DNA of 64,000 nucleotides from Candidatus Zixiibacteriota bacterium (GTDB lineage Bacteria; Zixibacteria; MSB-5A5; GN15; FEB-12): NCBI GenBank assembly GCA_040756055.1, contig JBFLZR010000007.1, positions 93,766 to 157,765 on the forward strand, read 5' to 3'. This document shows positions 1 through 27,126 of the stretch, one piece after another; within the stretch, counting starts at the first letter, position 1, and the number at the start of each line of letters is the position of its first letter. The translations under genes and the position numbers were made by a program. A model generated the notes under the pieces. That model had not been told where the DNA came from. It saw only the letters and a program-made list of their open reading frames with translations, and searched no databases.

Positions 1-3000
1 TGACGACGTTCCCGGCTGGTATGACCATTGATGCCAACGGCCTGGTAAGCTGGACCCCGAACGATGTTGGTGACTTTGGTGTTACAATCGAAGCTTCCAA
101 CGCGTTTGGTACCGATGTCCAGAGCTTTACTATTGCTGTAGCTGGCATCGCTCCGATCATTACTTCGACACCGAACGAAAACGGTGTTAGGAATGAACTC
201 TATACTTATGATGTTGACGCCAGTGGTTACCCGGCCCCGACGTTCGCTTTGGCGACCGCGCCGGGTGGCATGACCATTGACGCTGTTTCCGGTTTGATCT
301 CGTGGACTCCCGCTGACCTTGGTGACTTCGCCGTTGTGGTCGAAGCCAGCAACGTCGCCGGTACGGATGTCCAGAGCTTCAGTATTAATGTGGTAGAAGG
401 TGACATCGCTCCGATTATCACTTCTACGCCGGTTACCAGCGTAACTGTCAACCAACTTTATTCATATGACGTACAGGCCAGTGGTAATCCCGCCCCGACG
501 TTTGCTCTCACTGTGGCTCCGGCCGGCATGACTATCAATGCCACTACCGGACTTATTCAGTGGACGCCGACCGTCGTTGGCGATTACGATGTAACCGTCG
601 TCGCTACCAACGGCGTTGCTCCTGATGCTGTTCAGAGCTTCACGATCACCGTTCTGGGTATTGCCCCGACGTTTACGTCGACTCCCATTACCACCGGCAC
701 CTATGGCGTAGCTTATAGCTATGATGCCGATGCCGATGGCATCCCGGCCCCGACATTCGCTTTGGCGACTGCTCCGGCCGGTATGACCATTGACGCTATC
801 AGTGGTCTGGTGAGCTGGACTCCGGATGATGTTGGTGATTTCGATGTCACAATCGAAGCCTCCAACGTCGCCGGTACCGCTGTCCAGAGCTTCAGCATAG
901 CGGTTGCCGGCATTGCCCCGAGCTTTACCTCGACGCCGGTCCTGACTGGTACCTATGGTGTGGCTTACAGCTATGACGCCGACGCTGCTGGTTACCCGGC
1001 TCCGACGTTCGCTCTGACGACCGCCCCGGCCGGCATGACCATTGACGCTATCAGCGGTCTGGTAAGCTGGACCCCGGACGATGTTGGCGACTTCGGTGTT
1101 ACTATCGAGGCTTCCAACGTTGCCGGTACTGCTGTCCAGAGCTTCACGATAGCGGTTGCCGGTATTGCTCCGAGCTTCACCTCGACGCCGATCACTTCCG
1201 GTACTTATGGTGTAGCTTACAGCTACGATGCCGACGCTGATGGTTACCCGGCTCCGACGTTCGCTCTGACGACCGCCCCGGCTGGCATGACCATTGATGC
1301 CAACGGTCTGGTAAGCTGGACCCCGGATGATGTTGGTGATTTCGGTGTTACAATCGAAGCTTCCAACGTTGCCGGTACTGCTGTCCAGAGCTTCACCATT
1401 GCCGTGGCTGGTATTGCTCCGACCTTTACTTCAACGCCGATCACGAATGCCGGCTTTGAAGTACTCTATACATACGATGCCGATGCTGATGGTTACCCGG
1501 CGCCGACGTTCGCTCTGACGACGTTCCCGGCTGGCATGACCATTGACGCTATCAGCGGTCTGGTAAGCTGGACGCCTGACGATGTTGGTGACTTCGCCGT
1601 AGTAATCGAAGCTGCCAACGCGTTTGGTACCGATGTCCAGAGCTTCACCGTCACCGTTGGCGGTATCGGTCCGGTCTTCACGTCGACACCGGTTCTGACC
1701 GGTACGTACGGCGTGGCGTACAGCTATGACGCTAATGCCAGTGGTTACCCGGTCCCGACATTCGCTTTGGCGACCGCTCCGGCCGGTATGACCATTGACG
1801 CTATCAGCGGTCTGGTAAGCTGGATCCCGGGCGATGTTGGTGATTTCGATGTCATCATCGAAGCCACTAACGACTTCGGCACGGCTGTCCAGAGTTTCAC
1901 CATCGCGGTTGGTGGCATTGCTCCGAGCTTCACCTCGACGCCGGTTCTGACTGGTGACTATGGTGTAGCTTACAGCTATGACGCCGATGCTGATGGTTAC
2001 CCGGCTCCGACGTTCGCTTTGACGACCGCCCCGGCTGGTATGACCATTGATGGCGCTGGTCTGGTAAGCTGGACTCCGGATGATGTTGGCGACTTTGATG
2101 TTACAATCGAAGCTTCCAACGTTGCCGGTACTGCTGTCCAGAGCTTCACGATAGCCGTTGCCGGTATTGCTCCGAGCTTCACCTCGACGCCGATTACTTC
2201 CGGTACTTATGGTGTAGCTTACAGCTACGATGCCGACGCTGATGGTTACCCGGCGCCGACGTTCGCTCTGACGACCGCCCCGGCTGGCATGACCATTGAT
2301 GCCAACGGTCTGGTAAGCTGGACCCCGGATGATGTTGGTGATTTCGGTGTTACAATCGAAGCTTCCAACGTTGCCGGTACTGCTGTCCAGAGCTTCACGA
2401 TAGCGGTGGCCGGTATTGCTCCGAGCTTCACCTCTTCGCCGGTTCTGACCGGTGACTATGGCGTGCTCTACACTTACGATGCCGACGCTGCTGGTTATCC
2501 GGCTCCGACGTTCGCTCTGACGACCGCCCCGGCTGGTATGACTATTGATGCTAACGGTCTGGTAAGCTGGACTCCGGATGATGTTGGTGACTTTGGTGTT
2601 ACCATCGAAGCTTCCAACGCTTACGGTACTGCTGTCCAGAGCTTTACCATCGCCGTGGCTGGTATTGCTCCGAGCTTCACCTCGACGGCTCCTCTCGGTG
2701 GCGTCGTTGGTGAGCTTTACACTTATGATGCTAATGCCGATGGATATCCGGCCCCGACGTTCGCTCTGACGACTTCACCTCTCGGTATGACAATCGATGC
2801 GGTGAGTGGTCTGATCAGCTGGACGCCTGATGCTGAAGGTCTTTATGATGTCGTTATCGAGGCTTCCAACGCCTTTGGCAGCGATGTTCAGAGCTTCACC
2901 ATCAACGTGGTTGCTGGCCCAGAGGCTCCTGTAATAACTTCGACTCCGTCGACCAGTGTTGTTGTCAACCAGCTTTACAGCTATGATGTGGAAGCTACCG

Positions 3001-5702
3001 GTAACCCGGGTCCGACGTTCGCTTTGAGCGTTGCTCCGGCCGGTATGACAATCAACGCTACGACCGGACTTATCGAGTGGACCCCAGGCACCGTTGGTGA
3101 CTTTGATGTTACCGTGGTAGCCAGCAACGGTGTCGATCCTGATGCTGTTCAGAGCTTCACGATCACTGTGCTGGGTATTGCTCCTGCGTTCACTTCGACA
3201 CCTGTTTTGACAGGTACTTATGGTATAGCTTACAGCTACGATGCTGATGCTGATGGTATCCCGGCTCCGACGTTCGCTTTGACGACCGCCCCGGCCGGCA
3301 TGGCTATCGACGCTATCAGTGGTCTGGTAAGCTGGACGCCTGATGATGTTGGTGACTTTGGTGTTACAATCGAAGCTTCCAACGCTTACGGCACCGATGT
3401 CCAGAGCTTCACGATAGCGGTTGCCGGTATCGCTCCGAGCTTTACCTCCTCGCCGGTTCTGACTGGTGACTATGGTGTAGCTTACAGCTATGACGCCGAC
3501 GCCGATGGTTATCCGGTTCCGACGTTCGCTCTGGCGACCGCCCCGGCTGGCATGACTATCGACGCTATCAGTGGTCTGGTAAGCTGGACTCCGGATGATG
3601 CTGGTGACTTTGATGTCATAATTGAAGCCACTAACTCCGCCGGAACCGCCACTCAGAGCTTCACCATCACGGTTGGTGGTATCGCTCCGAGCTTTACGTC
3701 CACTCCGATCACGAGCGGCACCTACGGTGTACTCTACACTTATGATGCCGATGCCTCTGGTTATCCGGCTCCGACCTTCGCTCTCTCGACCGCTCCGGCC
3801 GGCATGACCATTGACGCCGTGTCAGGTCTGATTTCCTGGACCCCGGATGATGCTGGTGATTTCGACGTCGTCATCGAAGCCGCTAACTCTTCCGGTACTG
3901 CTGTCCAGAGCTTCACCATCACGGTCGTTGGTATAGCCCCGAGCTTTACATCGACGCCGGTTACTGCCGGTACTTATGGTGTGCTCTACACTTACGATGC
4001 CGACGCTGATGGTTATCCGACCCCGACGTTCGCTCTGGCGACCGCCCCGGCTGGCATGACCATTGATGCTATCGGTCTGGTAAGCTGGACCCCGGACGAT
4101 GTTGGTGACTTCGCCGTTACAATCGAAGCTTCCAACGCCTATGGCACCGATGTCCAGAGCTTCACGATAGCCGTTGCCGGTATCGCTCCGAGCTTCACCT
4201 CGTCGCCGGTTCTGACCGGCACCTTTGGTGTTGCTTACACTTACGATGCCGACGCTGATGGTTACCCGGCCCCGACGCTCGCTCTGACGGCCGCCCCGGC
4301 TGGCATGACCATCGACGCTGCCGGCGTGGTAACCTGGACGCCTGCTGACGTTGGTGACTTTGATGTTACAATCGAAGCTTCCAACGCCTACGGCACTGCT
4401 GTCCAGAGCTTTACCATCACCGTTGGTGGTACTGTTCCGGTCATTTCGTCGACACCGATTCTTACCGGTGTTGCCGGTGAACTCTATGCATACGATGTAG
4501 ACGCTGATGGCTATCCCGAGGCTACGTTCGCTCTGACGACGTCGCCAGCCGGCATGACCATCGACGCTATCTCGGGTCTGATTTCGTGGACTCCTGCCGC
4601 TGCCGGCAGCTACGATGTGGTTGTCGTAGCGAGCAACTCCGCGGGCTCAGACGCCCAGAGCTTCACCATAGTGGTTGAGGCCGCTCCGGAAGCTCCGGTC
4701 ATCACTTCGACTCCTGTGACCAGCGCGGTTATCTTTGACTCGTACGCGTACGATGTTGAAGCCACTGGTTACCCGACGCCGACGTTTGCTCTGACCACGG
4801 CTCCGCTCGGCATGACCATTGACGCCGCGACCGGTCTCATTTCGTGGACCGCGGATGCTCTCGGCGACTTTGCGGTGACAGTTGTGGCCGGCAACGGTGT
4901 TGAACCCGACGCTGTCCAGAGCTTCACCATAACCGTTTCGGGTATCGCTCCCACCTTCACCTCTACTCCTGTGGTAGAAGGTACGGTGGACGAGCTGTAC
5001 TCGTACGATGCTGATGCCGATGGTTATCCGGAGCCAACATTCGCGCTGGCTTATGGCCCGGCGGGAATGACGATCGACGCGGCGACCGGCCTGATTGAGT
5101 GGACACCGACCGAAACCGGATCCTTTGACGTTACCATAGAAGCTATCAACGACTATGGCACTGCGACTCAGGAATTCACGATCACGGTATTCAGTCAATT
5201 CCAGCCCGTCACCTTCCTGGATCAGGATCCCATCTATCTTAAGGATGTGCAGGATAAGATCCTTGGCGTGATGCTTGCTGGATTCGACGTTAGCACTGTC
5301 GACGTTAGCTCGATACTCGTCAACTACGAGGTACCTCCGAAGGATACCCCGTATGACACGGTGTATGCCGAGTATCCGCTGCCGGTCTTGAAGATACCGG
5401 TTGGAGTCATGAGATTCATGTCCAACTGGAGACCTATTAAGACCACTGTTCAGGATACTTATGTCGTCAGCTTCACGCTGCTCGACGGTACTCCGGTCGA
5501 ACTCGTCGGCGATGTGAACATCGAGATTGTACCCGGTGACCTCACTCTTGACGGGATAGTCAATAACGACGATATATCGTTCATGGTCGACCTGCTGTGG
5601 AATCACGGTAAATATCCGACCTACGAAGAGTTGGCCGATATTGACGGAAACGGCAAGGTTGATCCGATAGACCTGCGCGTTCTGATAAAGCTGGTCTATT
5701 AG
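1..5702 (+). CDS. Giant Ig-like repeat (He_PIG) surface protein with C-terminal dockerin, 5' end missing
   Basis: The reading frame is open from the first bases of the window, so the N-terminus and any signal peptide lie upstream. About 1,900 residues are visible. They form one partial and 20 complete tandem modules of about 83 residues, each built as xAPxFTSTP, then YxYDADADGYPAPTFAL, then PAGMTIDA, GLVSWTP and VQSFTIAV. This is the putative Ig/cadherin-like He_PIG pattern found in bacterial extracellular adhesins. From 5199 to 5534 a non-repeat module of about 110 residues follows, which recurs in the next three genes. The last 55 residues are a dockerin type I pair of calcium loops (DLTLDGIVNNDD and DIDGNGKVDPID). 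The protein is probably exported and surface-associated; ligand and partner are unknown. Some modules are almost identical at DNA level, a sign of recent internal duplication. Domain assignment is confident, function is inferred. Confidence 0.9.
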   Translation, partial: TTFPAGMTIDANGLVSWTPNDVGDFGVTIEASNAFGTDVQSFTIAVAGIAPIITSTPNENGVRNELYTYDVDASGYPAPTFALATAPGGMTIDAVSGLISWTPADLGDFAVVVEASNVAGTDVQSFSINVVEGDIAPIITSTPVTSVTVNQLYSYDVQASGNPAPTFALTVAPAGMTINATTGLIQWTPTVVGDYDVTVVATNGVAPDAVQSFTITVLGIAPTFTSTPITTGTYGVAYSYDADADGIPAPTFALATAPAGMTIDAISGLVSWTPDDVGDFDVTIEASNVAGTAVQSFSIAVAGIAPSFTSTPVLTGTYGVAYSYDADAAGYPAPTFALTTAPAGMTIDAISGLVSWTPDDVGDFGVTIEASNVAGTAVQSFTIAVAGIAPSFTSTPITSGTYGVAYSYDADADGYPAPTFALTTAPAGMTIDANGLVSWTPDDVGDFGVTIEASNVAGTAVQSFTIAVAGIAPTFTSTPITNAGFEVLYTYDADADGYPAPTFALTTFPAGMTIDAISGLVSWTPDDVGDFAVVIEAANAFGTDVQSFTVTVGGIGPVFTSTPVLTGTYGVAYSYDANASGYPVPTFALATAPAGMTIDAISGLVSWIPGDVGDFDVIIEATNDFGTAVQSFTIAVGGIAPSFTSTPVLTGDYGVAYSYDADADGYPAPTFALTTAPAGMTIDGAGLVSWTPDDVGDFDVTIEASNVAGTAVQSFTIAVAGIAPSFTSTPITSGTYGVAYSYDADADGYPAPTFALTTAPAGMTIDANGLVSWTPDDVGDFGVTIEASNVAGTAVQSFTIAVAGIAPSFTSSPVLTGDYGVLYTYDADAAGYPAPTFALTTAPAGMTIDANGLVSWTPDDVGDFGVTIEASNAYGTAVQSFTIAVAGIAPSFTSTAPLGGVVGELYTYDANADGYPAPTFALTTSPLGMTIDAVSGLISWTPDAEGLYDVVIEASNAFGSDVQSFTINVVAGPEAPVITSTPSTSVVVNQLYSYDVEATGNPGPTFALSVAPAGMTINATTGLIEWTPGTVGDFDVTVVASNGVDPDAVQSFTITVLGIAPAFTSTPVLTGTYGIAYSYDADADGIPAPTFALTTAPAGMAIDAISGLVSWTPDDVGDFGVTIEASNAYGTDVQSFTIAVAGIAPSFTSSPVLTGDYGVAYSYDADADGYPVPTFALATAPAGMTIDAISGLVSWTPDDAGDFDVIIEATNSAGTATQSFTITVGGIAPSFTSTPITSGTYGVLYTYDADASGYPAPTFALSTAPAGMTIDAVSGLISWTPDDAGDFDVVIEAANSSGTAVQSFTITVVGIAPSFTSTPVTAGTYGVLYTYDADADGYPTPTFALATAPAGMTIDAIGLVSWTPDDVGDFAVTIEASNAYGTDVQSFTIAVAGIAPSFTSSPVLTGTFGVAYTYDADADGYPAPTLALTAAPAGMTIDAAGVVTWTPADVGDFDVTIEASNAYGTAVQSFTITVGGTVPVISSTPILTGVAGELYAYDVDADGYPEATFALTTSPAGMTIDAISGLISWTPAAAGSYDVVVVASNSAGSDAQSFTIVVEAAPEAPVITSTPVTSAVIFDSYAYDVEATGYPTPTFALTTAPLGMTIDAATGLISWTADALGDFAVTVVAGNGVEPDAVQSFTITVSGIAPTFTSTPVVEGTVDELYSYDADADGYPEPTFALAYGPAGMTIDAATGLIEWTPTETGSFDVTIEAINDYGTATQEFTITVFSQFQPVTFLDQDPIYLKDVQDKILGVMLAGFDVSTVDVSSILVNYEVPPKDTPYDTVYAEYPLPVLKIPVGVMRFMSNWRPIKTTVQDTYVVSFTLLDGTPVELVGDVNIEIVPGDLTLDGIVNNDDISFMVDLLWNHGKYPTYEELADIDGNGKVDPIDLRVLIKLVY
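1110..1396 (+). repeat. Near-identical module tract, copy 1 (partner 2112-2398)
   Basis: About 287 bp spanning the end of one Ig-like module and most of the next recur exactly 1002 bp downstream, four modules later, with only a handful of base differences by eye. The two complete modules encode the same protein sequence. Other modules of the gene differ much more at synonymous sites, so this pair reflects recent duplication or gene conversion. Confidence 0.8.
2112..2398 (+). repeat. Near-identical module tract, copy 2 (partner 1110-1396)
   Basis: Second copy of the tract at 1110-1396. The match ends sharply near 2398, where the following codons differ (gcttcac followed by gatagcg here, by cattgcc in copy 1). 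Confidence 0.8.
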
Positions 5703-5736
5703 CGATTCCTAAATAGCTGCCCCTCAAGGCAGTAAA

Positions 5737-5774
5737 AAGCCCGCCCTCCAAAAGGGGGCGGGCTTTATTTTTTT
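5737..5774 (+). terminator. Intrinsic terminator after the first Ig-like gene
   Basis: A 10-bp GC-rich stem (5737-5746 pairing with 5756-5765, core CCCGCCC/GGGCGGG) is followed by a T-rich run, 35 bp after the stop codon. Confidence 0.9.
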
Positions 5775-6094
5775 GCCACCGATAATGAAACGAGATACAA
5801 TGAGTCGCGTATGCGCAATGGTGCTACCCCAAAAAACAGGAAAGACCACTATCGACCTTGAATTAGAGTTGACTAATGAGTCAATTATGTTTATATTTTA
5901 AATGTACTTTAAACCATTACTTCAGTTTAGATACCCTCACGAATCATTTTTTCGTTCGGGGGTTCAAGAGGGGTTTTACAGGGGTTGGTTCTCTATATCA
6001 ATAGGGAACTTGGTTTGGCGCAGCATATCGTATAATGAGCATATTTATCAATACAACCTAATAACCTCACAACTTTAAAACACAGGGAGTAACA
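5775..6094 (+). other. Intergenic region with probable promoter for the second Ig-like gene
   Basis: No gene is seen here. A TATAAT hexamer lies at 6031-6036 with TTGGTT at 6010-6015 (spacer only 15), a plausible but imperfect promoter giving a leader of about 55 nt. The ribosome-binding site (CAGGGAGTAACA) sits directly before the ATG. The part from 5775 to 6009 is AT-rich and shows no other recognisable feature; it contains GGTTCAAGAGG, also present before the third gene. Confidence 0.5.
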
Positions 6095-9000
6095 ATGAGA
6101 GCATTTGCCCTCACACTCATCGTTGCCCTAGTCCTGGTGTTGCCCGGTACCATACTTGGTCAGGCAATTTCGCTTGATCATGTCGATGGACTTAACGCCA
6201 GCGGCGAGATTATCCCCGGTGAAGTAGTTACATTCTATATCCGCTTGACCAACGGGCCATTGGCCCAGTCGGTTATCAGCAACGGATATCGGGTGTATTC
6301 TCCAGACGGTGCTACCTGGAGCCCACTGGTGGGAACACTCAATCCAATTTATCCATGGGATATGGATCCGTTTGTAATGTTTCCGCCTTACTTCGACCTG
6401 GGAATGTACGTTAACGTCTTCTCCAATGGATTAGTCTCTGACACCATCGGCTTTGGCGGCGCCGCGGGCATGTACGGCACCGGCCTTCCGGCCAACTTCG
6501 ATGCCGTCGGGTACTGGATTACCATGGGCGCGGTTGATATCGCCCACGCCGGTAAAACCATCGTACTCGACTCAGCCTGGTACCCGCCGGCCGGTCGCTG
6601 GGTCTGGGCCACCGTGGCCGAGAATGTCGCCTGGGATGGCCCGCACACCTTCCCGATTCACAGTGATGAACCCATAGGCGAAGCCCCGGTGATAACTTCA
6701 ACGCCGGTTACCTCAGCCACGTACGGTGCAGCCTACACCTATGATGTTGAGGCTACCGGCGACCCGGCTCCGACGTTCGCTTTGACAACGGCTCCGGCAG
6801 GCATGACCATTGATGCTGCCACCGGCGTCATTTCCTGGACTCCGGATGTTGTCGGTGACATCGATGTCGTAGTAGAGGCCTCGAACACCGAAGGTACTGA
6901 TACACAGGCCTTCACTATCGCTGTGGCTGGTATCGTTCCGGCCTTCACCTCGACTCCGGTTACTACCGGTACTTACGGTGTGGCTTACAGCTATGATGCT
7001 AACGTGAGTGGTTACCCGGCCCCGACGTTCGCTCTGACGACTGCCCCGGCAGGAATGATCATTAACGGCACGACCGGTCTGATTTCCTGGACACCCGATG
7101 TTGTCGGTGATGTTCCGGTAGTCGTAGAAGCCTCGAACGTAGCCGGTACTGCTGTCCAGAGCTTCAGTATCTCCGTGGCCGGTATCGCTCCGGCCTTCAC
7201 CTCGACTCCGGTTACTACCGGTACTTACGGTGTGGCTTACAGCTATGATGCCGACGCCTCTGGTTACCCGGCCCCGACGTTTGCTCTGACGACCGCCCCG
7301 GCCGGCATGACCATTGACGCCGCTTCCGGCCTGGTAAGCTGGACTCCGGACGTCGTTGGTGATGTCGCGGTTGTCCTCGAAGCTTCCAACGCTTATGGCT
7401 CCGATGCCCAGACCTTCACCATCACGGTTGGCGGTATTGCTCCGAGCATCACCTCGTTACCGTGTGAGAATGCCCAATACGGTGTGCCTTACACTTGTGA
7501 TGTAGACGCTGATGGCTATCCGGCCCCGACGTTCGCTCTGACGACCGCCCCGGCCGGCATGACCATTGACGCTGCCAGTGGCCTGATCTCTTGGACCCCG
7601 GACCTTATCGGCGACGTTCTGGTAGTCGTAGAAGCCTCCAACGGTTACGGCTCCGATGTTCAGAACTTCACGATTGCGGTGGCTGGTATCACTCCAAGCT
7701 TCACCTCGACCCCGGTCCTGACTGGTACCTATGGTGTTGCTTACAGCTACGATGCCAATGCTGATGGTTATCCGGCCCCGACGTTCGCTCTGACGACCGC
7801 CCCGGCTGGTATGACCGTTGACGCCGCGTCCGGTCTGGTAAGCTGGACCCCGGATGATGTTGGTGACTTCGCGGTTGTAATCGAAGCTGCTAACGCGTTT
7901 GGTACCGACGTCCAGAGCTTTACCATCACGGTTACTGGTATTGCTCCGAGCTTCACCTCGACGGCTCCTCTCGGTGGCGTTGTCGGTGAACTCTACACTT
8001 ATGATGCTAATGCCGACGGTTACCCGGCCCCGACGTTCGCTCTGACGACCGCCCCGGCCAGCATGACCATAGATGCTGTTTCGGGTCTAATCGGGTGGAC
8101 TCCCGCCGCAGCTGGCGACTATGACGTGGTAGTCGAAGCCGCCAACGCTTTTGGCTCTGACGTACAGAGCTTCACGATCGGCGTGGTTGACGCTCCCGAA
8201 GCCCCGCTTATTACTTCAACGCCGGTGACCGGTGTTACCGTGAACCAGCTTTACACCTACGATGTGGAAGCTACCGGTAATCCGGCCCCGACGTTCGCTC
8301 TGACGACCGCTCCGGCCGGCATGACGATTAATGCCACCAGCGGTTTGATTTCGTGGACACCCACCATGGTTGGCGATTACGGTGTAACAGTCGTCGCCAG
8401 CAACGATGTGGAACCCGATGCCGTTCAGAGCTTCACGATTACCGTGGTTGGCATTGCCCCGAGCTTTACTTCGACCCCGGTTACCAGTGTGGCCTACGGC
8501 GCTGCTTACAGCTATGACGCCGATGCCGATGGTATCCCGGCTCCGACGTTTGCTCTGACAACCGCTCCGGCCGGCATGACTATTGATGCCGTCAGCGGCT
8601 TGATCGAGTGGACAGCCGACTTTGCCGGTGATGTCGACGTGGTCATTGAGGCTTCCAACGCTTTTGGTAGCGATGTCCAAAGCTTCAAGATTTCCGTCCT
8701 CGGCGCCGCTCCGTCATTCACTTCCACGCCGATTACTATCGGTACTTACGGCGTGGCTTACAGCTATGATGCTGATGCCGATGGTATCCCGGCTCCGACG
8801 TTCGCTCTGACGACCGCTCCGGCCGGTATGACTATCGACGCTGCGACTGGCCTGGTCGCCTGGACACCGGATGATGTTGGAGATTTCGGTGTTGTCATCG
8901 AAGCTTCCAACGCTTTCGGAACCGATGTCCAGAGCTTCAGCATAGCTGTTGCTGGTATTGCTCCGGTGATTACCACAACTCCTACCACCACAGGCGTGGT

Positions 9001-10969
9001 TGGCGAGTTGTATTACTATGACGCCGATGCTACCGGTTACCCGGCCCCGACCTGGTCAGGTGATGGTAACATCGATCCGGTTACCGGCGAGGTTTCCTTT
9101 ACGCCGACAGAACCCGGCGACTATATCCTTTCCATTACGGCTACCAACGCCTATGGCTCTGACACTCAGGGTTGGACGGTCACGGTCGCTGCTGGTCCCG
9201 AGGCTCCGGTTATCACCTCGACCCCGGTTACCACAGTTGGTATTTATGAACTTTATTCTTATAACGTCGATGCTACCGGTAATCCGGCCCCGACGTTCGC
9301 TCTGACGACCGCTCCGGCCGGCATGACCATTGATGCCGCCAGCGGCTTGATTTCGTGGACACCCGGAGCTCTTGGTGATTACGACGTAACCGTCGTCGCC
9401 AGCAACGGTGTGGATCCCGACGCTGTTCAGAGCTTCACGATCACGGTTTCGGGTGTGGCTCCGAGCTTCACCTCGACCCCGGTTACCTCCGGTACCTACG
9501 GCGTGGCTTACAGCTATGACGCTGATGCCGATGGTATCCCGGCTCCGACGTTCGCTCTGACGACCGCTCCGGCCGGTATGACCATTGACGCCGCGTCCGG
9601 TCTGGTTGCCTGGACCCCGGATGATGTTGGTGATTTCGGTGTAGTTATCGAAGCCTCCAACGCCTTCGGAACCGACGTCCAGAGCTTCACTATCGCAGTT
9701 GTCGGTATCGCTCCGGTGATCACGACGACTCCGCCCAGCGCAGGGGTGGTTGGCGAGCTGTATTACTATGATGCTGATGCTACCGGTTACCCGGCCCCGA
9801 CATGGTCCGGTGGAGACATAGACCCGGTCACCGGTGTCCTGCAATTTGTCCCGACCGTGCCCGGTGACTTTAGCATCACCATCACGGCCAGCAACGACTA
9901 CGGTTCTGACACCCAGAGTTGGAACCTCACCGTGGCCCCGGCTACCGAGGCTCCGGTTATCACCTCGACTCCTGTGACCAGCGCCGTTATATTTGACGCG
10001 TATGCTTACGATGTCGAGGCCACTGGCTATCCGACTCCGACGTTCGCTCTCTCAACCGCTCCGGCCGGCATGACTATCGATGCCGCCAGCGGCTTGATCG
10101 GGTGGACCCCGGACGCTCTGGGTGACTTCGACGTGATAGTCGTTGCCTCCAACGGTGTCGATCCCGACGCTGTTCAGTCGTTCACGATCACCGTTATCGG
10201 CATCGCTCCTGCATTTACTTCGATGCCGGTCACTGGTGTGACAGTTAACACGCTGTACAGCTACGATGCCGATGCCGATGGTTATCCGGCTCCGACGTTT
10301 GCCCTGATCACGGCCCCGGCCGGCATGACTATCGATGCCGCTACCGGCCTGCTCGAGTGGACCCCGGATGTTACAGGAACCTATGATGTCGAGATCGAAG
10401 CCACTAACGACTTTGGTGTCGCCACGCAGGCCTTCACCATCACGGTTCACGACGAGTTCCAGCCGGTCACATTCCTCGAGCACGATCCGCTCTTTATCAA
10501 CTCCGATATTATCGATCAGACTGTGGGAGTGATTCTGGCCGGATTCGATGTCTCGCAGGTCGATATATCATCGATACTGATCATGGGCATGGTGGTTCCG
10601 GAACACGATCCGCCTTACATGACCTCCTGGACCGGATATACCGAACCCGTTTTGTATATCCCGTTCTACACGAACCGTCTGTTGGCACACTACCGTCCTT
10701 ATAGGACCAGCATTCAGGATACCTACCTGGTGACCTTCCTGCTTCTGGATGGAACACCGGTTGAACTTCGTGGCGATATCAACATCGAAATCAACCCTGG
10801 CGACCTGAATGTCGATGGCATCGTGGACAACCAGGATATCGACCTGCTGGTCAACGTACTCTGGAACAACGGTCGCCGTGCCTCAGACTACGAAGCGCTT
10901 TATGATGTCGATGGTAACGGCAAGCTGGATCCGCTGGATCTGCGCGCCCTTATCAATATTGTGTACTAG
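6095..10969 (+). CDS. Giant Ig-like repeat (He_PIG) surface protein with N-terminal module and dockerin
   Basis: This gene encodes 1624 residues. A clear signal peptide (residues 1-22, ending in LGQ) follows a good ribosome-binding site. Residues about 24-198 form a module (ISLDHVDGLNASGEI, later GFGGAAGMYGTGLP and YPPAGRWVW) that is repeated only in the next gene. Fifteen He_PIG modules of about 83 residues follow; modules 10 and 13 are shorter variants with YYYDADATGYPAPTWSG. Then comes the shared C-terminal module (about 1455-1568, starting FQPVTFLEHDPLF) and a dockerin (1569-1624, loops DLNVDGIVDNQD and DVDGNGKLDPLD). The protein is inferred to be exported and to act as a long stalk or adhesin. 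It has its own promoter region and terminator, so it is probably monocistronic. Binding function cannot be read from the sequence. Confidence 0.93.
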   Translation: MRAFALTLIVALVLVLPGTILGQAISLDHVDGLNASGEIIPGEVVTFYIRLTNGPLAQSVISNGYRVYSPDGATWSPLVGTLNPIYPWDMDPFVMFPPYFDLGMYVNVFSNGLVSDTIGFGGAAGMYGTGLPANFDAVGYWITMGAVDIAHAGKTIVLDSAWYPPAGRWVWATVAENVAWDGPHTFPIHSDEPIGEAPVITSTPVTSATYGAAYTYDVEATGDPAPTFALTTAPAGMTIDAATGVISWTPDVVGDIDVVVEASNTEGTDTQAFTIAVAGIVPAFTSTPVTTGTYGVAYSYDANVSGYPAPTFALTTAPAGMIINGTTGLISWTPDVVGDVPVVVEASNVAGTAVQSFSISVAGIAPAFTSTPVTTGTYGVAYSYDADASGYPAPTFALTTAPAGMTIDAASGLVSWTPDVVGDVAVVLEASNAYGSDAQTFTITVGGIAPSITSLPCENAQYGVPYTCDVDADGYPAPTFALTTAPAGMTIDAASGLISWTPDLIGDVLVVVEASNGYGSDVQNFTIAVAGITPSFTSTPVLTGTYGVAYSYDANADGYPAPTFALTTAPAGMTVDAASGLVSWTPDDVGDFAVVIEAANAFGTDVQSFTITVTGIAPSFTSTAPLGGVVGELYTYDANADGYPAPTFALTTAPASMTIDAVSGLIGWTPAAAGDYDVVVEAANAFGSDVQSFTIGVVDAPEAPLITSTPVTGVTVNQLYTYDVEATGNPAPTFALTTAPAGMTINATSGLISWTPTMVGDYGVTVVASNDVEPDAVQSFTITVVGIAPSFTSTPVTSVAYGAAYSYDADADGIPAPTFALTTAPAGMTIDAVSGLIEWTADFAGDVDVVIEASNAFGSDVQSFKISVLGAAPSFTSTPITIGTYGVAYSYDADADGIPAPTFALTTAPAGMTIDAATGLVAWTPDDVGDFGVVIEASNAFGTDVQSFSIAVAGIAPVITTTPTTTGVVGELYYYDADATGYPAPTWSGDGNIDPVTGEVSFTPTEPGDYILSITATNAYGSDTQGWTVTVAAGPEAPVITSTPVTTVGIYELYSYNVDATGNPAPTFALTTAPAGMTIDAASGLISWTPGALGDYDVTVVASNGVDPDAVQSFTITVSGVAPSFTSTPVTSGTYGVAYSYDADADGIPAPTFALTTAPAGMTIDAASGLVAWTPDDVGDFGVVIEASNAFGTDVQSFTIAVVGIAPVITTTPPSAGVVGELYYYDADATGYPAPTWSGGDIDPVTGVLQFVPTVPGDFSITITASNDYGSDTQSWNLTVAPATEAPVITSTPVTSAVIFDAYAYDVEATGYPTPTFALSTAPAGMTIDAASGLIGWTPDALGDFDVIVVASNGVDPDAVQSFTITVIGIAPAFTSMPVTGVTVNTLYSYDADADGYPAPTFALITAPAGMTIDAATGLLEWTPDVTGTYDVEIEATNDFGVATQAFTITVHDEFQPVTFLEHDPLFINSDIIDQTVGVILAGFDVSQVDISSILIMGMVVPEHDPPYMTSWTGYTEPVLYIPFYTNRLLAHYRPYRTSIQDTYLVTFLLLDGTPVELRGDINIEINPGDLNVDGIVDNQDIDLLVNVLWNNGRRASDYEALYDVDGNGKLDPLDLRALINIVY

Positions 10970-11005
10970 CGCCTCGTAAGTGGCTGTCTGACAAAGCAGT
11001 CTAGC

Positions 11006-11042
11006 GCCCGCCCCGAACAAAACGGGGCGGGCCTTTCTTTTA
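11006..11042 (+). terminator. Intrinsic terminator after the second Ig-like gene
   Basis: A 10-bp stem (GCCCGCCCCG at 11006-11015 with CGGGGCGGGC at 11023-11032) is followed by a T-rich run. Confidence 0.9.
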
Positions 11043-11105
11043 CCGGCTATCTTTCCGGTCAGCTACAATTCTCCTGCCGACAGTCTTCGCGCCGGGGATT
11101 AATGG

Positions 11106-11134
11106 TTGACAAACCGCTCACTCGTGGTTATATT
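11106..11134 (+). promoter_or_regulatory. Sigma70-like promoter of the third Ig-like gene
   Basis: TTGACA (11106-11111), a 17-bp spacer and TATATT (11129-11134). The predicted start near 11141 leaves a leader of about 195 nt before the ATG at 11335. Confidence 0.8.
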
Positions 11135-11138
11135 TACC

Positions 11139-11334
11139 CAGTACGTCAACCCTCACCTCTGGCGTACTGCTATTACTGATTAAGTTACATCGCGTAAAAC
11201 CCCGGGGAGCGGGAACAGGTTCAAGAGGACTTCATTTGTTTTGCTTGCCCTCCGGGAGTAACGCAGCAAGTTAGAGTTTGAGAGATACCAATTACAACCC
11301 ATTCAACTTTTCAACACTTTGTGAGGGAGTAACT
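11139..11334 (+). other. Long leader with 5' hairpin
   Basis: The leader begins with a 9-bp hairpin: CAGTACGTC at 11139-11147 pairs with GGCGTACTG at 11161-11169 (one G-T pair). Further down is a GC-rich stretch with the self-complementary CCCCGGGG (about 11201-11208) and a partly matching CTCCGGGAG (about 11251-11259). The region ends in a strong ribosome-binding site (GAGGGAGTAACT). No known riboswitch consensus was recognised. Confidence 0.45.
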
Positions 11335-13422
11335 ATGAGACTAACAGCAGTCTTGCTCAGCGTTGGTCTGATACTGTTCTCATTCGGCACTGTTTTGGGT
11401 CAGTCGATTACCATCGACCATGTCGACGGCCTCAATGCCTCGGGTGAGATCGAACAGGGAGCTACGCTTACCGTTTACATGCGCCTGACAGGCGATGCTA
11501 ATGCGCATTATGTCATATCGAACGGCTTCCGTGTCTACGGTAACGATCTGAACTGGGGCTCACTCAGCGGTAAGCTGAATCCCGCCTACAAGTGGGATCT
11601 GAGCTTCGGTTTCCCGTGCTTTTTTGACCTCGGAATGTACATCAACGTATTCTCCACCGGATCGGTCGCTGACACCATCGGTTTCGGTGGTGCAGCCGGT
11701 ATGTTTGGTACCGGACTTCCGGCCGGATTTGATGATATTGGGTACTGGATCAACCTCGGACCGGTGACCGGCGGCGGCGATTTCCTCTATATCGACTCGT
11801 CGTTCTACCCGCCGGCTGGCCGCTGGGTATGGGATATCGTCGGTGAAAACGTTGCCTGGGGCGGCCCGTATGCTTTCCCGATGGCCATAGAGTGCGAACC
11901 CGCTGTGTTCACCTCGACCCCGATCACCGAGGGCGAAGTCGGCACGGAGTATGTCTATGACGTCAACGCCACAGGTAACCCGGCTCCGGAATTCTCTCTG
12001 ACCGTGTTCCCGGAAGGTATGGCTATTGACCCGATGACCGGCGTCATTACTTTCACACCTACCGCCGCCGGCGACTACGCCGTAACAGTTGTGGCCAGCA
12101 ACGCCTGCAGTGCGCCCACTCAGGAATTTGTCATCCACGTTCCCGAACCGCCAGTGGCCCCCGTGATTACATCCACTCCGATTCCTAATGGCGTGGTCAA
12201 TTCGGTATACACCTACGATGTCAACGCTACCGGCAACCCGGTCCCGACATATGCCCTGACGGTCTTCCCGGACGGCATGGTGATCGTTGCTGAAACCGGC
12301 GCTATTACCTGGACTCCCACCGCCACCGGTGACTATGACGTAACAGTTGTGGCCTCCAACGGTGTCGTGCCGGACGCTGTCCAGAGTTTCGTTATTACCG
12401 TCACTCCGGAACTCGTTTCGCCGACTATCGTAACCACTCCCGTGACCGATGGTCAGGTCGGCGAGGCTTATTACTATGACGTCGACGCTACCGGATATCC
12501 GGAACCGACCTTCACTCTCACCACCGCTCCGGGCGGGATGACCATCGACGGGTTCACCGGTGAAATTAACTGGACTCCGACTGCCGCTGGTGATTTCAGT
12601 GTTACCGTGCGCGCCGCCAACGGTGTGTCTCCGGCCGCTACCCAGAGCTTCGTCATCGCCGTGGTCCCGGCTTTCGCCGCCCCGGTGATTACTTCGACTC
12701 CCGTTCTCGAGGGCGCCGAGGGTGACCCGTACTACTACGATGTCAACGCTACCGGCTACCCGGCTGCGACCTTCACCCTGACCGTCTTCCCGGATGGCAT
12801 GACCATCAATGAAGCTACCGGCGAAATCAACTGGACTCCCACCGTTTTGGGTGACTATGACGTAACAGTTGTGGCCGCCAACGGTATCGAGCCCGATGCG
12901 GTCCAGAGCTTCGTGATCAGCGTGGCCGAGGGCTGTCCGGTAGTCATTACCTATCTCGAGCAGGATCCGATCATCCTCAAAGACCTGGCCGACAGAGTCC
13001 TCCGCGTCTACGTCGAGTGCGAAGATAACGCGCACGTCGATCTGAACACCGTGGTGGTACAGGGCAAAATTCCGCCGTATACCGCCGCCCGCATCGAGGG
13101 CGACCTCCTCGTGACCGATGTCTTTATTTTCCGCTTCCTCGCCGCCTGGAGACCGATTGCGGCCGATATCCAGTCACAGTACACGGTTGCCTACAACATG
13201 CTTGACGGCACGTTCGTGGAACTCTCCGGTGAGATGAACCTCCAGGTTTATCCCGGCGACCTGAATTTCGATGGCATTGAAGATGTTAACGATATCACTT
13301 TCCTGGTCGACTACATGTTCAGGGGCGGCGACGAACCGATGTTGCCGGAAGCTCTGGATGTGAACCGCGACGGTTACAACGATATCAGAGACCTTCGCGC
13401 TATCGTGGAAATCGTATACTAA
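11335..13422 (+). CDS. Ig-like repeat surface protein, short member, with dockerin
   Basis: I chose the ATG at 11335 because it follows GAGGGAGTAACT and starts a clean signal peptide (MRLTAVLLSVGLILFSFG, cut near LGQ). An upstream in-frame TTG at 11278 has no such support. The 695-residue protein is a short version of its upstream neighbour: N-terminal module (about 24-190, with HVDGLNASGEI, GFGGAAGMFGTGLP and YPPAGRWVW), four He_PIG modules, the shared C-terminal module (about 537-640, ITYLEQDPIILKDL to NLQVYP) and a dockerin with loops DLNFDGIEDVND and DVNRDGYNDIRD. Codon usage here favours C-ending codons more than in the two larger genes, suggesting it is not a recent copy of them. It is inferred to be exported; role unknown. 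Confidence 0.92.
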   Translation: MRLTAVLLSVGLILFSFGTVLGQSITIDHVDGLNASGEIEQGATLTVYMRLTGDANAHYVISNGFRVYGNDLNWGSLSGKLNPAYKWDLSFGFPCFFDLGMYINVFSTGSVADTIGFGGAAGMFGTGLPAGFDDIGYWINLGPVTGGGDFLYIDSSFYPPAGRWVWDIVGENVAWGGPYAFPMAIECEPAVFTSTPITEGEVGTEYVYDVNATGNPAPEFSLTVFPEGMAIDPMTGVITFTPTAAGDYAVTVVASNACSAPTQEFVIHVPEPPVAPVITSTPIPNGVVNSVYTYDVNATGNPVPTYALTVFPDGMVIVAETGAITWTPTATGDYDVTVVASNGVVPDAVQSFVITVTPELVSPTIVTTPVTDGQVGEAYYYDVDATGYPEPTFTLTTAPGGMTIDGFTGEINWTPTAAGDFSVTVRAANGVSPAATQSFVIAVVPAFAAPVITSTPVLEGAEGDPYYYDVNATGYPAATFTLTVFPDGMTINEATGEINWTPTVLGDYDVTVVAANGIEPDAVQSFVISVAEGCPVVITYLEQDPIILKDLADRVLRVYVECEDNAHVDLNTVVVQGKIPPYTAARIEGDLLVTDVFIFRFLAAWRPIAADIQSQYTVAYNMLDGTFVELSGEMNLQVYPGDLNFDGIEDVNDITFLVDYMFRGGDEPMLPEALDVNRDGYNDIRDLRAIVEIVY

Positions 13423-13460
13423 GTAGTCTTCTGACTATCCGAGTATAATTACTCTCGAAA

Positions 13461-13492
13461 AAACCCGCCCTCGAAATGGGCGGGTTTTTTTT
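13461..13492 (+). terminator. Intrinsic terminator
   Basis: A 10-bp stem (AAACCCGCCC at 13461-13470 with GGGCGGGTTT at 13478-13487) runs into a T tract. Confidence 0.92.
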
Positions 13493-13528
13493 AACCTCGA
13501 CGCGCAAATTGCCGATACAAGACTACAG

Positions 13529-13557
13529 TTGACAATATTGTCTATTTTAGGTATATT
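13529..13557 (+). promoter_or_regulatory. Sigma70-like promoter of the triple-module gene
   Basis: TTGACA (13529-13534), a 17-bp spacer and TATATT (13552-13557): the same hexamers and spacing as the promoter at 11106. Confidence 0.82.
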
Positions 13558-13628
13558 CGGGTTATCCAAACGCCGCCCGTTCACCCGGCAAACAGCGGCG
13601 ATCCATAAATATCTCGGTGGAGGGTATG

Positions 13629-15260
13629 ATGAAAATAAAGCCAAGACTTATCCTGACCGCTCTCGGGTTGCTCCTTGCCGTTTCCGTTTTCGGCGAGGGT
13701 GAGCAATACCAGACTCGCGAAGAACCAAACACTCACCAGCACAAATATTCGAACCTTCAGACCTATCTTGAAGACGACCCAATCAGACTCGTCGACCTTG
13801 AGGACCGGATTCTGAAAGTCTACGTGCGCGGGGGAGACCTCGATGTCCGCGACATCGATCTCAGCACGGTGCTCGTTCAGGGGAAAATACCTCCCTATAC
13901 TGCGGCAAGAATCGAAGGCAACCAACTCGTAACCGATGTTTTCATTTTTCGCTTTCTGGCCGCCTGGCGTCCAATTTGCGAGGATATACAAGGAACCTAT
14001 TCCATATCATTCGATCTGAAAAACGAAGAACACATTACCCTCTACGGCGAGTTGCATCTCGATTACGTTCAGGGAGACGTTAATCTCGATGGTCTGGTGA
14101 ACGGGGACGATATCGCCTTCTTCGAAGACTATCTGTACAACAGTGGACCCGGGTCGATGCTGGAAGAAGCCCTAAATGTCAACTGCGACAGATATCTAAA
14201 CCTGGACGACCTCGAACTTCTCAAGCAGCTCGTCGCGGAGGCAGAGGAGTCCGAACCCAACCGCGAGAAACAAGGCTACGGCGACCCGCCAACCTACCTT
14301 GAACAGAACCCGATCGTCCTCAAAGACCTCACAGACAGGATCCTCAGGGTCTACGTGCGTGGCACCAATTTCGACATTCACGATATCGACCTCAGCACAG
14401 TTGTAACACAGGGGAAAATCCCGCCATATACCGAAGCCCGCATCGAGGGCGACCGAATGGTCACGGATGTTTTCATATTTCGTTTTCTGAGCGCCTGGCG
14501 ACCTATCGAAGATGATGTCCACAGTCGCTACACGGTCGAGTTTGATCTCAATTCGGGCGAGCATATTGTGCTTGATGGTACGGTGAACGTAAAGATTTAT
14601 CCGGGCGATTTGAATTTCGAAGAAGACGATTGTGAGATGTTATTTATGCTTTTGGAACTCGCCGAGCAGGGCGTTATCGACATAGATGTTGAAGAGCTGG
14701 AACGCATGCTCGAAGAGGCCGGTTGCTACGAAGAGGAAGAACCGCCGTATCGCCGCCGCGACCGCGATGGCAAGCCGTTTACCTATCTTGAAGAAGATCC
14801 TGTCACTCTGGTCAACCTGCCGGAGAAACTCCTCAAAGTGTATGTCCGCCGCGCGGATTATGCTCTTAAGGATATAGTACTGGAATCAGTGCTAATTAAC
14901 GGGAAAATTCCTCCACATACAGAGGCGTGGATTGAGGAAGACCGCCTGATAACAGATGTCCTCTTGATGCGCTTCATGACTTTCTGCCGGCCAATAGAAC
15001 AGGATGTCCACGCCGGCTACAGCGTCTCTTTCGATCTTACCAACGGAGAGCATGTTGACTTGTACGGTGAGGTCAACATAGAATATATAGAGGGAGATCT
15101 GAACCTCGATGGTACAGTCAATATAGAAGATATTGTCTTTATAATTGACTACCTTCACCACTCCGGACCGTCATGTGTCCTTGAGGAAATGCTCGATGTG
15201 GACAATGATGGCATTATCTGTGATAGGGATATACTTGCAGTGACTCAGATTGTCTACTAG
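13629..15260 (+). CDS. Exported protein with three copies of the shared C-terminal module and dockerins
   Basis: The ATG at 13629 is preferred because GGAGGG lies about 5 bases upstream; GTG at 13617 and ATG at 13626 are alternatives. The 543-residue protein has a signal peptide (MKIKPRLILTALGLLLAVSVFG) and no Ig modules. It has three copies of the module that ends the three preceding proteins, starting near residues 45, 221 and 385. Each copy reads TYLExxPxxL, a VYVRG-like strand, GKIPPYT or GKIPPHT, a TDVFIFRFL or TDVLLMRFM block and a RPI motif. Copies 1 and 3 are followed by a dockerin. After copy 2 the dockerin has decayed into an acidic, Glu-rich segment. The gene may encode a small scaffold or competitor for whatever the module binds; that is inference. 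It has its own promoter and terminator. Confidence 0.88.
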   Translation: MKIKPRLILTALGLLLAVSVFGEGEQYQTREEPNTHQHKYSNLQTYLEDDPIRLVDLEDRILKVYVRGGDLDVRDIDLSTVLVQGKIPPYTAARIEGNQLVTDVFIFRFLAAWRPICEDIQGTYSISFDLKNEEHITLYGELHLDYVQGDVNLDGLVNGDDIAFFEDYLYNSGPGSMLEEALNVNCDRYLNLDDLELLKQLVAEAEESEPNREKQGYGDPPTYLEQNPIVLKDLTDRILRVYVRGTNFDIHDIDLSTVVTQGKIPPYTEARIEGDRMVTDVFIFRFLSAWRPIEDDVHSRYTVEFDLNSGEHIVLDGTVNVKIYPGDLNFEEDDCEMLFMLLELAEQGVIDIDVEELERMLEEAGCYEEEEPPYRRRDRDGKPFTYLEEDPVTLVNLPEKLLKVYVRRADYALKDIVLESVLINGKIPPHTEAWIEEDRLITDVLLMRFMTFCRPIEQDVHAGYSVSFDLTNGEHVDLYGEVNIEYIEGDLNLDGTVNIEDIVFIIDYLHHSGPSCVLEEMLDVDNDGIICDRDILAVTQIVY

Positions 15261-19470: not shown

Positions 19471-21813
19471 TTATTGACAGGCCACCGGAGGAGGTCCGAG
19501 TTTCCAGATATACTCGATCAGGTATACCAAATCCTGTGGATCGACCTCACCGTCACCATTTACGTCGGCTTCCTCTTCACACTCGGGTGCGCTGCCCTGT
19601 TTGTAAAGCCAATTGACAAAATAAAGTACATCCATAACATCGATATAATCGTGCGTGTCGTAGTCGGCATTGCCTGATCTTCCGTCGCAGCACCCGAAGT
19701 CAATCACCGTCAGATAAGCGTCACGGCTGCCAAGAAGTTCACCCTGGAGCGGGTCGGCCAGGGGAAAGTCTTCCGACACAGTGTAACCGGCGAAATAGGC
19801 CCGGCGCAAATCGTCAACAACAACCGACCAGCCTCCTTCCGCCCTGTGGCCGCCAAGATATGAACTGAACCCCAACTCGTTGCCCAGCGCGTCTATCTTT
19901 CCGATGAAAGCGTCCGCGGTGTCCGCGTTCATGAAATCATCCAATGGATCAACCATCGGGAAATCGAGCGAATAGGTGTATCCGGTCAGAAACATGTTGC
20001 CGTAGCGGTCTGTCCAGATGGCCTCTCCGTAGTCATCATCGGAGCCGCCGTAGAATGTGCTGAGAAGAAGGTTGGTACCCGACGCTGAAAACCGGGCGGC
20101 AAACGCATCGGCCCCGATGAAAGCGCCACCCATGTGATAAGGCTGAAATCCATTTACTATGGGCAGGTCGGGCGAGGCCGTGCCTCCCACTACGGAAAGC
20201 TGACCGCGCTCATCGACGAAAGCGCCCGTTATCCAGTCCGTGTGACAGCCTCCGAAGAACGTGCTGTAAACGAGAGCGTCGCCATCGGCGGAAAGCTTGG
20301 TAACAAAACCATCCACCGTTCCGCAAAAGGTGGAGTCATAAGCGTTAGCCAGACGAAAATCTTCCGAGTAAGTCTTGCCGGCGGTATAAACACATCCCTG
20401 AAGATCGACTACACAGACGTTACACTCGTCATCCTGGCCGCCGCCGAGATAAGTCGAGTATATCAGGCCGGTGCCATCAAGACTGAATTTGGATACCGTT
20501 ACATCTTTAAGGCCCGTTCCAAACCACGGGAAAATGGGGTTGACGGTCGGAAAATCGCGCGAATAAGTCGACACCGCAACATACAGATGGCCGGCCGTAT
20601 CCACAGCCGGAATGCCCTTCGCCTCGTCATCGGAACCGCCGAGATACGTACTGAACAGGATCTCGTTCCCAAGGGGACTCAACTTTACGACGAATACATC
20701 GCTCCAACCGCCAAGCGTGTTATCCAACGCATTGACGGTGGGGACGTCATCAGACATCGTGTGCGCTGCTATATACGCACATCCGTCTTTGTCCACGGTG
20801 AGACGGCTTATGTCGTCCTGCTCACTGCCTCCGAGATAAGTGGCGAACTCAATGACATTCGTCTCGGGACGCATCTTTATGACGAACAGATCCCAGTCGA
20901 GAATGGACGGGGTCTTGTCCTGCGCCGGATTGACAATCGGAAAATCAACCGAATTGGTGTACCCCACCAGGTAGACAGCGCCACTGGAGTCTATCTGCAC
21001 GCCGCGGCAGTATTCACTCGAGGTACCACCGATGTAAGTGCTATAAGTCAAAACCGGGTCGATAATCAACGGCAACGAGCGATCATAACCCCCATCAAGC
21101 GAAAAACCGAAACTCAGAGGCGATATCTGACGGTAAGAACCAACCACCTCCACGCGGCCGGTAGATGTCTCCTGGTACACGTACGGACAACGCTCCGTAA
21201 CCGTACCCCAACCAGTCTCCACCACCAACTCTCCCGAACCGTTCACATATATCCCATCGGCCCCCTCGTAACGAACCTCGATTACCGACGGATCCGCCCC
21301 GGCAGATACAATGAAATCATACTCCAGATACTCACCGTTGCCAAAATACCTCAAGTCTATTCCCGGATATAAACCCCGGTAGACAATCGACTCGAAGTTG
21401 GCTACATTGGTCCGCCATCGAGAAGGATCATTACCCAAGAAATAATTCGACCGATAATCGAGCTTGCCCTGACCGACTACCTCGGGGTTACCCCGGGCGC
21501 CGACAAAAGCAGCTTTTACCAGCATGACCTCGGTCGGTGAGGGACCCTGCCGGTCACGTCTGAGAGGTGATTCCCGGTCGGTCAGCTCCCGGCTAAACTG
21601 ATAATAAGCACCGTCTCGGCCAAACCACATCGTGGCGGCCCCGGCGCTCGCTCTGAAAAGGATATTATCCTCCCATTGACCGGCGTTCTCTGTGAAGGAC
21701 ATGGGAGCAGTCGCGCTCAGACCGCTCAGTGAAGCGAACGCGTTGTAATCGGCGGTACCTATTGCGAGGGTGAGTATCAATACCAGTCCGATGGCGGTTG
21801 ATTTTGCTGGCAT
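19471..21813 (-). CDS. Secreted SBBP beta-propeller protein with C-terminal dockerin (paralogue A)
   Basis: The 780-residue protein has a signal peptide (about 1-27), a GGAGG ribosome-binding site before the ATG, and an N-terminal domain (about 36-260) beginning SFTENAGQWEDNILFR and ending LIIDPVLTYSTYIGG. This layout is typical of proteins with SBBP (seven-bladed beta-propeller) repeats. Residues about 260-690 are SBBP repeats of about 50-60 residues (STYLGGSDDEA, TYSRDFPTVNP). Just before the end is a FGCC pair, then a dockerin with loops NADYDTHDYID and DVNGDGEVDPQD, a Cys in the linker (PECEEEAD) and a Cys next to the C-terminus. It is probably secreted and may form a propeller; ligand unknown. 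The 5' part is nearly identical to that of paralogue B. Confidence 0.92.
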   Translation of the reverse strand: MPAKSTAIGLVLILTLAIGTADYNAFASLSGLSATAPMSFTENAGQWEDNILFRASAGAATMWFGRDGAYYQFSRELTDRESPLRRDRQGPSPTEVMLVKAAFVGARGNPEVVGQGKLDYRSNYFLGNDPSRWRTNVANFESIVYRGLYPGIDLRYFGNGEYLEYDFIVSAGADPSVIEVRYEGADGIYVNGSGELVVETGWGTVTERCPYVYQETSTGRVEVVGSYRQISPLSFGFSLDGGYDRSLPLIIDPVLTYSTYIGGTSSEYCRGVQIDSSGAVYLVGYTNSVDFPIVNPAQDKTPSILDWDLFVIKMRPETNVIEFATYLGGSEQDDISRLTVDKDGCAYIAAHTMSDDVPTVNALDNTLGGWSDVFVVKLSPLGNEILFSTYLGGSDDEAKGIPAVDTAGHLYVAVSTYSRDFPTVNPIFPWFGTGLKDVTVSKFSLDGTGLIYSTYLGGGQDDECNVCVVDLQGCVYTAGKTYSEDFRLANAYDSTFCGTVDGFVTKLSADGDALVYSTFFGGCHTDWITGAFVDERGQLSVVGGTASPDLPIVNGFQPYHMGGAFIGADAFAARFSASGTNLLLSTFYGGSDDDYGEAIWTDRYGNMFLTGYTYSLDFPMVDPLDDFMNADTADAFIGKIDALGNELGFSSYLGGHRAEGGWSVVVDDLRRAYFAGYTVSEDFPLADPLQGELLGSRDAYLTVIDFGCCDGRSGNADYDTHDYIDVMDVLYFVNWLYKQGSAPECEEEADVNGDGEVDPQDLVYLIEYIWKLGPPPVACQ
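21046..21714 (-). repeat. 669-bp near-identical tract, copy in paralogue A
   Basis: This tract matches 23695-24363 at a constant offset of 2649 bp. By eye I find one difference (21117 G versus 23766 T, Leu versus Met). It covers most of the N-terminal domain and stops at the signal-peptide junction and at the first SBBP repeat, where the two genes become clearly divergent. Confidence 0.9.
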
Positions 21814-22128
21814 ATTCTTTTGGCCTCCAGGCTGCGTCGAATTGTACTCCGCTGACTTATTATAAAAGACAGATTATCCTGACGTTCTAAAGATGTCTGG
21901 TGAGGGGGTAATTCAATCTGTCAGGTGCGCGGCACAACGGCAGACAACTGAACAGGCCTGGCGCCATCCGTCCGGAGGAGGTGGAAACCCCGGAAAAGCC
22001 GGTACGCCCGGAGTCCGCTCAAAGCAGACCCCTTAATTGAATTCAGACACCTTCTCGATACTTAAACTCGAGAAGAGTTTTATGACAAAACACAGGTTTG
22101 TTAACTGTCCTGTGCCTGATATCGTTGA
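21814..22128 (-). other. Intergenic region between SBBP paralogues B and A
   Basis: Read on the minus strand it holds a probable terminator of paralogue B (22085-22114), then about 200 bp with no recognised feature, then a TATAAT hexamer at 21859-21864 without a convincing -35 box, and the GGAGG ribosome-binding site of paralogue A. A short inverted repeat AAACTC/GAGTTT lies at 22064-22080. No gene is seen. Confidence 0.5.
22085..22114 (-). terminator. Probable terminator of SBBP paralogue B
   Basis: On the minus strand CACAGG and CCTGTG (22109-22114 and 22091-22096) form a hairpin followed by TTTTGTC. The stem is only 6 bp, so efficiency is uncertain. Confidence 0.5.
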
Positions 22129-24465: not shown

Positions 24466-24530
24466 GTAAAGAAACCTCCGGACGGAGTGCGTCTGATTAA
24501 GTATTTCGGGTATGTAAAAGGTTATGTATA

Positions 24531-27080: not shown

Positions 27081-27126
27081 CTTACTGCTGTTGCCTCACT
27101 TTGGTGTTAGCCAACGCTGCAATTAA

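Follow-up and report, generated by a model that had tools for sequence, protein, structure and literature searches.

An unnamed, predicted Ig-like domain directly before the dockerin in tandem putative surface proteins of a Candidatus Zixiibacteriota bacterium

The window analyzed here is a 64,000-nucleotide stretch from the genome of a Candidatus Zixiibacteriota bacterium (G000), and it includes four adjacent plus-strand genes (w1 to w4) that together encode six copies of a module of 103-111 amino acids each. These four genes are part of a larger array. A search of the window's own genome places nine adjacent genes with 11 modules at G000:C7:86135-108854, and the same search found no copies of the module outside that interval. 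The array is cut by the window edge, as five more one-module genes are situated upstream (locus L012), beyond a 100-N assembly gap (L012:15667-15766) that lies just upstream of window base 1 and inside the He_PIG repeats of w1. The start of w1 lies 5' of this gap and carries the same N-terminal domain (the N-domain) as other genes of the array. Each of the five upstream genes, u1 and u4 among them, encodes approximately 350 residues comprising a signal peptide, an N-domain of approximately 170 residues, one module, and one dockerin. Signal peptides were called by eye and, together with the domain types, suggest a surface location for the array proteins. The features are as follows, in window coordinates unless locus L012 is named:

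3-5702, plus strand: gene w1 (its 5' part lies upstream of the window edge and of the assembly gap), with He_PIG Ig-like repeats, module 1, and dockerin
5208-5534, plus strand: module copy 1, of the subtype without GKIPPYT
5535-5699, plus strand: dockerin of w1
6095-10969, plus strand: gene w2, with signal peptide, predicted cohesin-fold N-domain, He_PIG repeats, module 2, and dockerin
6149-6682, plus strand: N-domain of w2, same family as the predicted cohesin-fold domain (fold via its relative u1)
10466-10798, plus strand: module copy 2, of the subtype without GKIPPYT
10799-10966, plus strand: dockerin of w2
11335-13422, plus strand: gene w3, with signal peptide, N-domain, four He_PIG repeats, module 3, and dockerin
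11389-11901, plus strand: N-domain of w3
12946-13254, plus strand: module copy 3, the first row of the structure model
13255-13419, plus strand: dockerin of w3
13629-15260, plus strand: gene w4, with signal peptide, then three module copies, without an N-domain
13758-14072, plus strand: module copy 4
14073-14231, plus strand: first dockerin of w4, its second calcium loop degenerate
14289-14603, plus strand: module copy 5, with a degenerate dockerin remnant behind it
14778-15092, plus strand: module copy 6
15093-15257, plus strand: C-terminal dockerin of w4
L012 7530-8609: gene u1
L012 11374-12450: gene u4

The original prediction described the module as ending three of these genes and occurring three times in the fourth, and all six copies were confirmed. 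Pairwise local alignments yield z-scores of 16 to 76 relative to shuffled sequences, with identities of 28-64%; the copies are a real family whose similarity is far beyond chance. The motifs first proposed as its signature (TYLEQDP, GKIPPYT, TDVFIFRFL, and RPI) describe four of the copies and do not extend to those of w1 and w2, which constitute a second subtype (TFLDQDP / EVPPKDTPYDTV / IPVGVMRFMSNWRPI) with 28-39% identity to the other four. The claim that the module runs directly into the dockerin likewise stands for five of the six copies, where the junction, as in every intact copy, has no linker at all, and fails for the middle copy of w4 (14289-14603), behind which only a degenerate dockerin remnant (GDLNFEEDDCEM...), not called by Pfam, is found. 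Measured against the type I dockerin model (PF00404, cut-off 22.9 bits), the dockerins of w1 (26.1 bits), w2 (31.0), and w4 (44.0) all score above the cut-off, and that of w3 scores 21.5 bits by hmmscan and 25.2 by genome search. The window's genome encodes nineteen or so further dockerins that lack the module, and thus the module is not required for every dockerin.

Scans of the module-bearing proteins identified no Pfam, NCBIfam, or PHROG model covering the module, with chance-level matches only. A profile of the window-type module (A1) matched no PDB chain sequence at E up to 10, and two other profiles (A3 and A4) gave nothing above chance and no relevant match among the PDB chain sequences. 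That the module corresponds to no named domain, as initially suspected, is borne out by these searches. DUF6706 was considered and rejected as its identity (E 0.0009, below cut-off, in one copy only). He_PIG (PF05345) shares with the module an Ig-like sandwich fold and presence in the same proteins, but differs in sequence, has no Pfam match to the module, and leaves the C-terminal position to it: in the scanned proteins the best He_PIG stretches stop short of the module, and a Pfam scan of the module-only protein w4 detected no He_PIG match.

An AlphaFold2 model of the module (105 residues, 49 aligned sequences; pLDDT 92.4, pTM 0.82) consists of seven strands plus a helix that connects strand 5 to strand 6. 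The TDVFIFRFL motif corresponds to the end of strand 5 and the following helix in this model, and forms no obvious binding motif. Structure comparison returned Ig/IPT-type sandwiches, including plexin A2 (Z 8.2), SusF (7.4), and bacterial adhesin Ig domains (approximately 5.7), and these middling scores (Z 8.2 and below) point to a common fold arrangement. By this model the module is an Ig-like beta-sandwich, new in sequence only and old in fold, so the original objection, that it would be only an extra Ig-like fold, holds in part. Given such a fold, the module might be a passive spacer or stiffener, one more Ig-like domain ending Ig-repeat stalks of the kind that He_PIG repeats already build in three of the window proteins. 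This is quite improbable, as the module has no sequence match to He_PIG or any other Ig family and stays last before the dockerin even in stalk-free proteins, and as its divergence follows that of the dockerin (see below), which would not be expected of a spacer.

The module is also not confined to these proteins. Clear homologs are found in three other genomes of the genus (G001-G003), where they are clustered in tandem much as here and share the architecture. Weaker matches (E 1e-6 to 0.1, E-values in these genome searches being per genome) are spread over the class, order, and family and resolve to one coherent domain, in each case just before a dockerin. The A3 profile, built only from distant, other-genus sequences, finds the window modules in a reverse search (E=7e-13), and alignment of the window-type profile to A3 by hhalign gives 98.3% (E 1.6e-14, 98 columns) vs. 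0.2% for a control with the unrelated N-domain. A protein from the same genus (L048, minus strand, 3081-4163), which matches A3 with E 3.4e-17, bridges the two module types. Of 132 genomes of the phylum, 47 carry this broad pre-dockerin domain, which is likewise without a name in the family searches. On sequence comparison, the module is a divergent branch of this unnamed domain and hence not an orphan. The two are homologous and occupy the same place before the dockerin, but the GKIPPYT and TDVFIFRFL signature is restricted to the window type of this genus, the window type lacks a longer loop after strand 3, and it has been amplified in tandem, whereas other genera scatter the domain on diverse secreted proteins. 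Nothing credible bearing the window-type signature was found outside the genus with A1 patterns across 84,980 named species genomes (the whole of GTDB). The sole locus from that scan, in a member of the Lachnospiraceae (L043), was dismissed as a chance match of approximately 20 residues in a 95-residue frame.

Examined by eye, all 30 distant loci have a dockerin directly after the broad domain (a simple motif caught 28). The N-terminal parts of these distant genes are unrelated, and include Kelch-type propellers. This distribution bears on whether tandem duplication alone might account for the association, with module and dockerin seeming coupled only through adjacency and joint copying. The nine tandem paralogs fit that proposal, as does a module tree in which copies group mostly by genome; the w1/w2 subtype is placed beside distant relatives in the same tree. 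The association is nevertheless kept across genera at low identity and beside unrelated N-terminal parts, for which recent duplication cannot account, and duplication as the whole explanation is very improbable.

Module and dockerin also diverge together. Among seven paralogs of the window's own genome, module identities correlate with dockerin identities at r=0.905 (Mantel p=0.0015), as compared with r 0.42 (p=0.20) for module vs. N-domain and r 0.48 (p=0.13) for N-domain vs. dockerin. When all 18 genus proteins are included, each of the three domain pairs shows a correlation (0.66-0.71), as common descent would predict. Between u1 and u4, identity at third codon positions climbs toward the 3' end (N-domain 0.51, module 0.79, dockerin 0.91), a gradient that suggests that the 3' unit (module plus dockerin) may be exchanged or homogenized between paralogs as a unit, as in gene conversion of the tail. 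The earlier view that the module is fixed to the dockerin is supported both by this co-divergence and by the constant order in the distant relatives. Strict adjacency and co-divergence are consistent with the proposed attachment or folding unit, a reading made from sequence comparison, and module plus dockerin together as a tail is better supported in that role than the module alone.

The same observations weigh on a different proposal, in which the module acts on its own as an Ig-like domain for adhesion or for binding a ligand (carbohydrate or protein), and precedes the dockerin only because these proteins habitually have that domain order. Some secreted proteins consist of nothing but signal peptide, module, and dockerin, with three modules in w4 and one in a minimal w4-type protein of a genus relative (L046, 5159-5848), such that the module may be their cargo. 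Module sub-families are also distinguished by extra residues inserted in the loop that follows strand 3, which would fit this proposal as well. However, none of the 30 distant loci examined has the module apart from a dockerin, the module diverges in step with the dockerin and not with the N-domain, and no carbohydrate-binding family is singled out among the listed fold matches from the module structure comparison. Independent ligand binding is, on balance, rather unlikely.

The opposite end of the array proteins also resembles a known component of dockerin systems. A full-length model of u1 (330 residues, pLDDT 81.7, pTM 0.52, the last too low to establish packing of module on dockerin) has as its best Foldseek matches four chains of Coh-X-Doc from Clostridium thermocellum CipA (3kcp, 4fl4; E 5e-7 to 7e-6), with an rmsd above 20 over the whole chain. 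Cohesin chains fill all seven best rows for u1 residues 1-166 (Z 10.7-12.0, 135-142 residues aligned, rmsd 2.7-3.0), and the N-domain is accordingly modeled as having a predicted cohesin fold. None of 26 N-domain members matches the Pfam cohesin model (PF00963), and hhalign of the N-domain against 29 cohesins of the phylum gives 4.9% over 22 columns, such that profile-profile comparison detected no sequence homology. A DSxFYPPAG segment common to the N-domain and one phylum cohesin is too short to count, and matches to CBM3 are weak (E 0.003-0.03) and cover 55 residues only; both were set aside. The N-domain family is unnamed and large, occurring in 73 of 132 phylum genomes. Recognized cohesins are found in 118 of these 132 genomes, are absent from G001, G002, and G003, and appear only below cut-off in G000. 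Despite having no recognized cohesin above cut-off, these four genomes (G000-G003) encode 20-42 dockerins each.

The N-domain is not always joined to module and dockerin. The window's genome, which carries SprA and dozens of type IX secretion tails, includes a pair of proteins in which such a tail replaces module plus dockerin, and G002 has a similar pair (L141):

G000:C1:327400-330800 (L140), ORFs 321-1202 and 1466-2413, minus strand: two proteins with N-domain and type IX secretion sorting tail

As the same N-domain is found with either ending in G000 and G002, module plus dockerin looks, from these gene architectures, like one of two alternative and seemingly interchangeable C-terminal attachment tails.

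Domains in comparable positions are known from cellulosomes. Known X-modules of approximately 98 residues are seven-stranded and Ig-like, and are situated directly before the dockerin and in contact with it (PMC5141474). They raise the solubility of the dockerin, its affinity for cohesin, and its resistance to force (PMC4266597). The module resembles the X-modules of cellulosomal XDoc tails (C. thermocellum ScaA/CipA and CipB; Ruminococcus flavefaciens CttA) in its size of approximately 100 residues, its predicted seven-stranded Ig-like fold, and its position directly N-terminal to the dockerin in five of six window copies, and the best match of the whole u1 protein is to Coh-X-Doc of CipA. 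It differs in that the solved X-modules have no detectable sequence relation to it, in its host, a bacterium bearing a type IX secretion system (T9SS) with no recognized scaffoldin, and in its setting, a tandem array of short proteins. No known X-module is among the 50 listed matches of the module-only fold search. Since there is no sequence relation and contact with the dockerin is here inferred, the module is not classed as an X-module; the tail it forms with the dockerin seems to have evolved independently of the cellulosomal X-module and dockerin tail that it resembles.

As it resembles X-modules in size, predicted fold class, and position, and diverges together with its dockerin, the module probably works by analogy like an X-module, as an unnamed Ig-like stabilizer that forms a C-terminal docking tail with the dockerin. 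An Ig-like module dedicated to the dockerin that follows would make the pair a rigid unit, in which the module would pack on the dockerin, stabilize it, and orient it, and the stabilized dockerin may gain a stronger hold in a receptor of the cohesin type. The nine tandem genes would supply secreted proteins with cohesin-fold N-domains, with or without He_PIG spacer arms, that the tail would fasten into a non-cellulosomal assembly, presumably at the surface. Counting against this explanation are the failed sequence and fold-list matches to known X-modules, the low pTM of the full-length model, the many dockerins of this genome that lack the module, the retention of one module copy (14289-14603) that has lost its intact dockerin, and the lack of a recognized cohesin above cut-off in the genus. 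If true, the X-module/dockerin principle known from cellulosomes of Gram-positive fiber degraders would have arisen or persisted in a T9SS-bearing lineage, where it would serve surface assembly, not cellulose degradation.

Monovalent adaptor scaffoldins combine a cohesin and a dockerin in one chain. The array proteins are similar in joining a predicted cohesin-fold domain and a dockerin within a single chain, but their N-domain is not detectable as a cohesin by sequence. A bolder and doubtful extension of the X-module-like reading would make the array a self-interlocking, non-cellulosomal surface network, in which the N-domain, a cohesin unrecognizable by sequence, of one subunit would bind the XDoc-like tail of the next, head to tail. 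The T9SS-tailed N-domain homologs of the L140 locus (G000:C1) would then be the cell-surface receptors that anchor the chain, and the genus would use a cryptic cohesin family for its 20-42 dockerins per genome. Boundaries are also drawn for two unannotated domains, the pre-dockerin Ig domain (47 of 132 genomes) and the predicted cohesin-fold N-domain (73 of 132), and the X-module-like reading, if right, would offer a candidate answer to the binding partner of many "orphan" dockerins in such genomes.

Several other genes of the region and genome encode dockerin- or cohesin-like sequences. The only Pfam-like cohesin found in G000 is in a 583-residue ORF (L050, G000:C2) that encodes a lipoprotein-like protein with leucine-rich repeats; its cohesin scores 23.7 bits, under the cut-off of 24.1, and it is a candidate dockerin receptor. 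Just upstream of the array, two adjacent minus-strand genes (L012:3-1637 and 1771-3606) encode papain-family (C1) proteases with PKD, each with a cohesin-like stretch recognized by eye and the second (1771-3606) also with a dockerin-like end. Another tandem family of dockerin proteins lies beside the array within the window: four adjacent minus-strand genes (19471-29746) encode proteins with DUF7948, SBBP beta-propeller repeats, and dockerin-like C-terminal ends.
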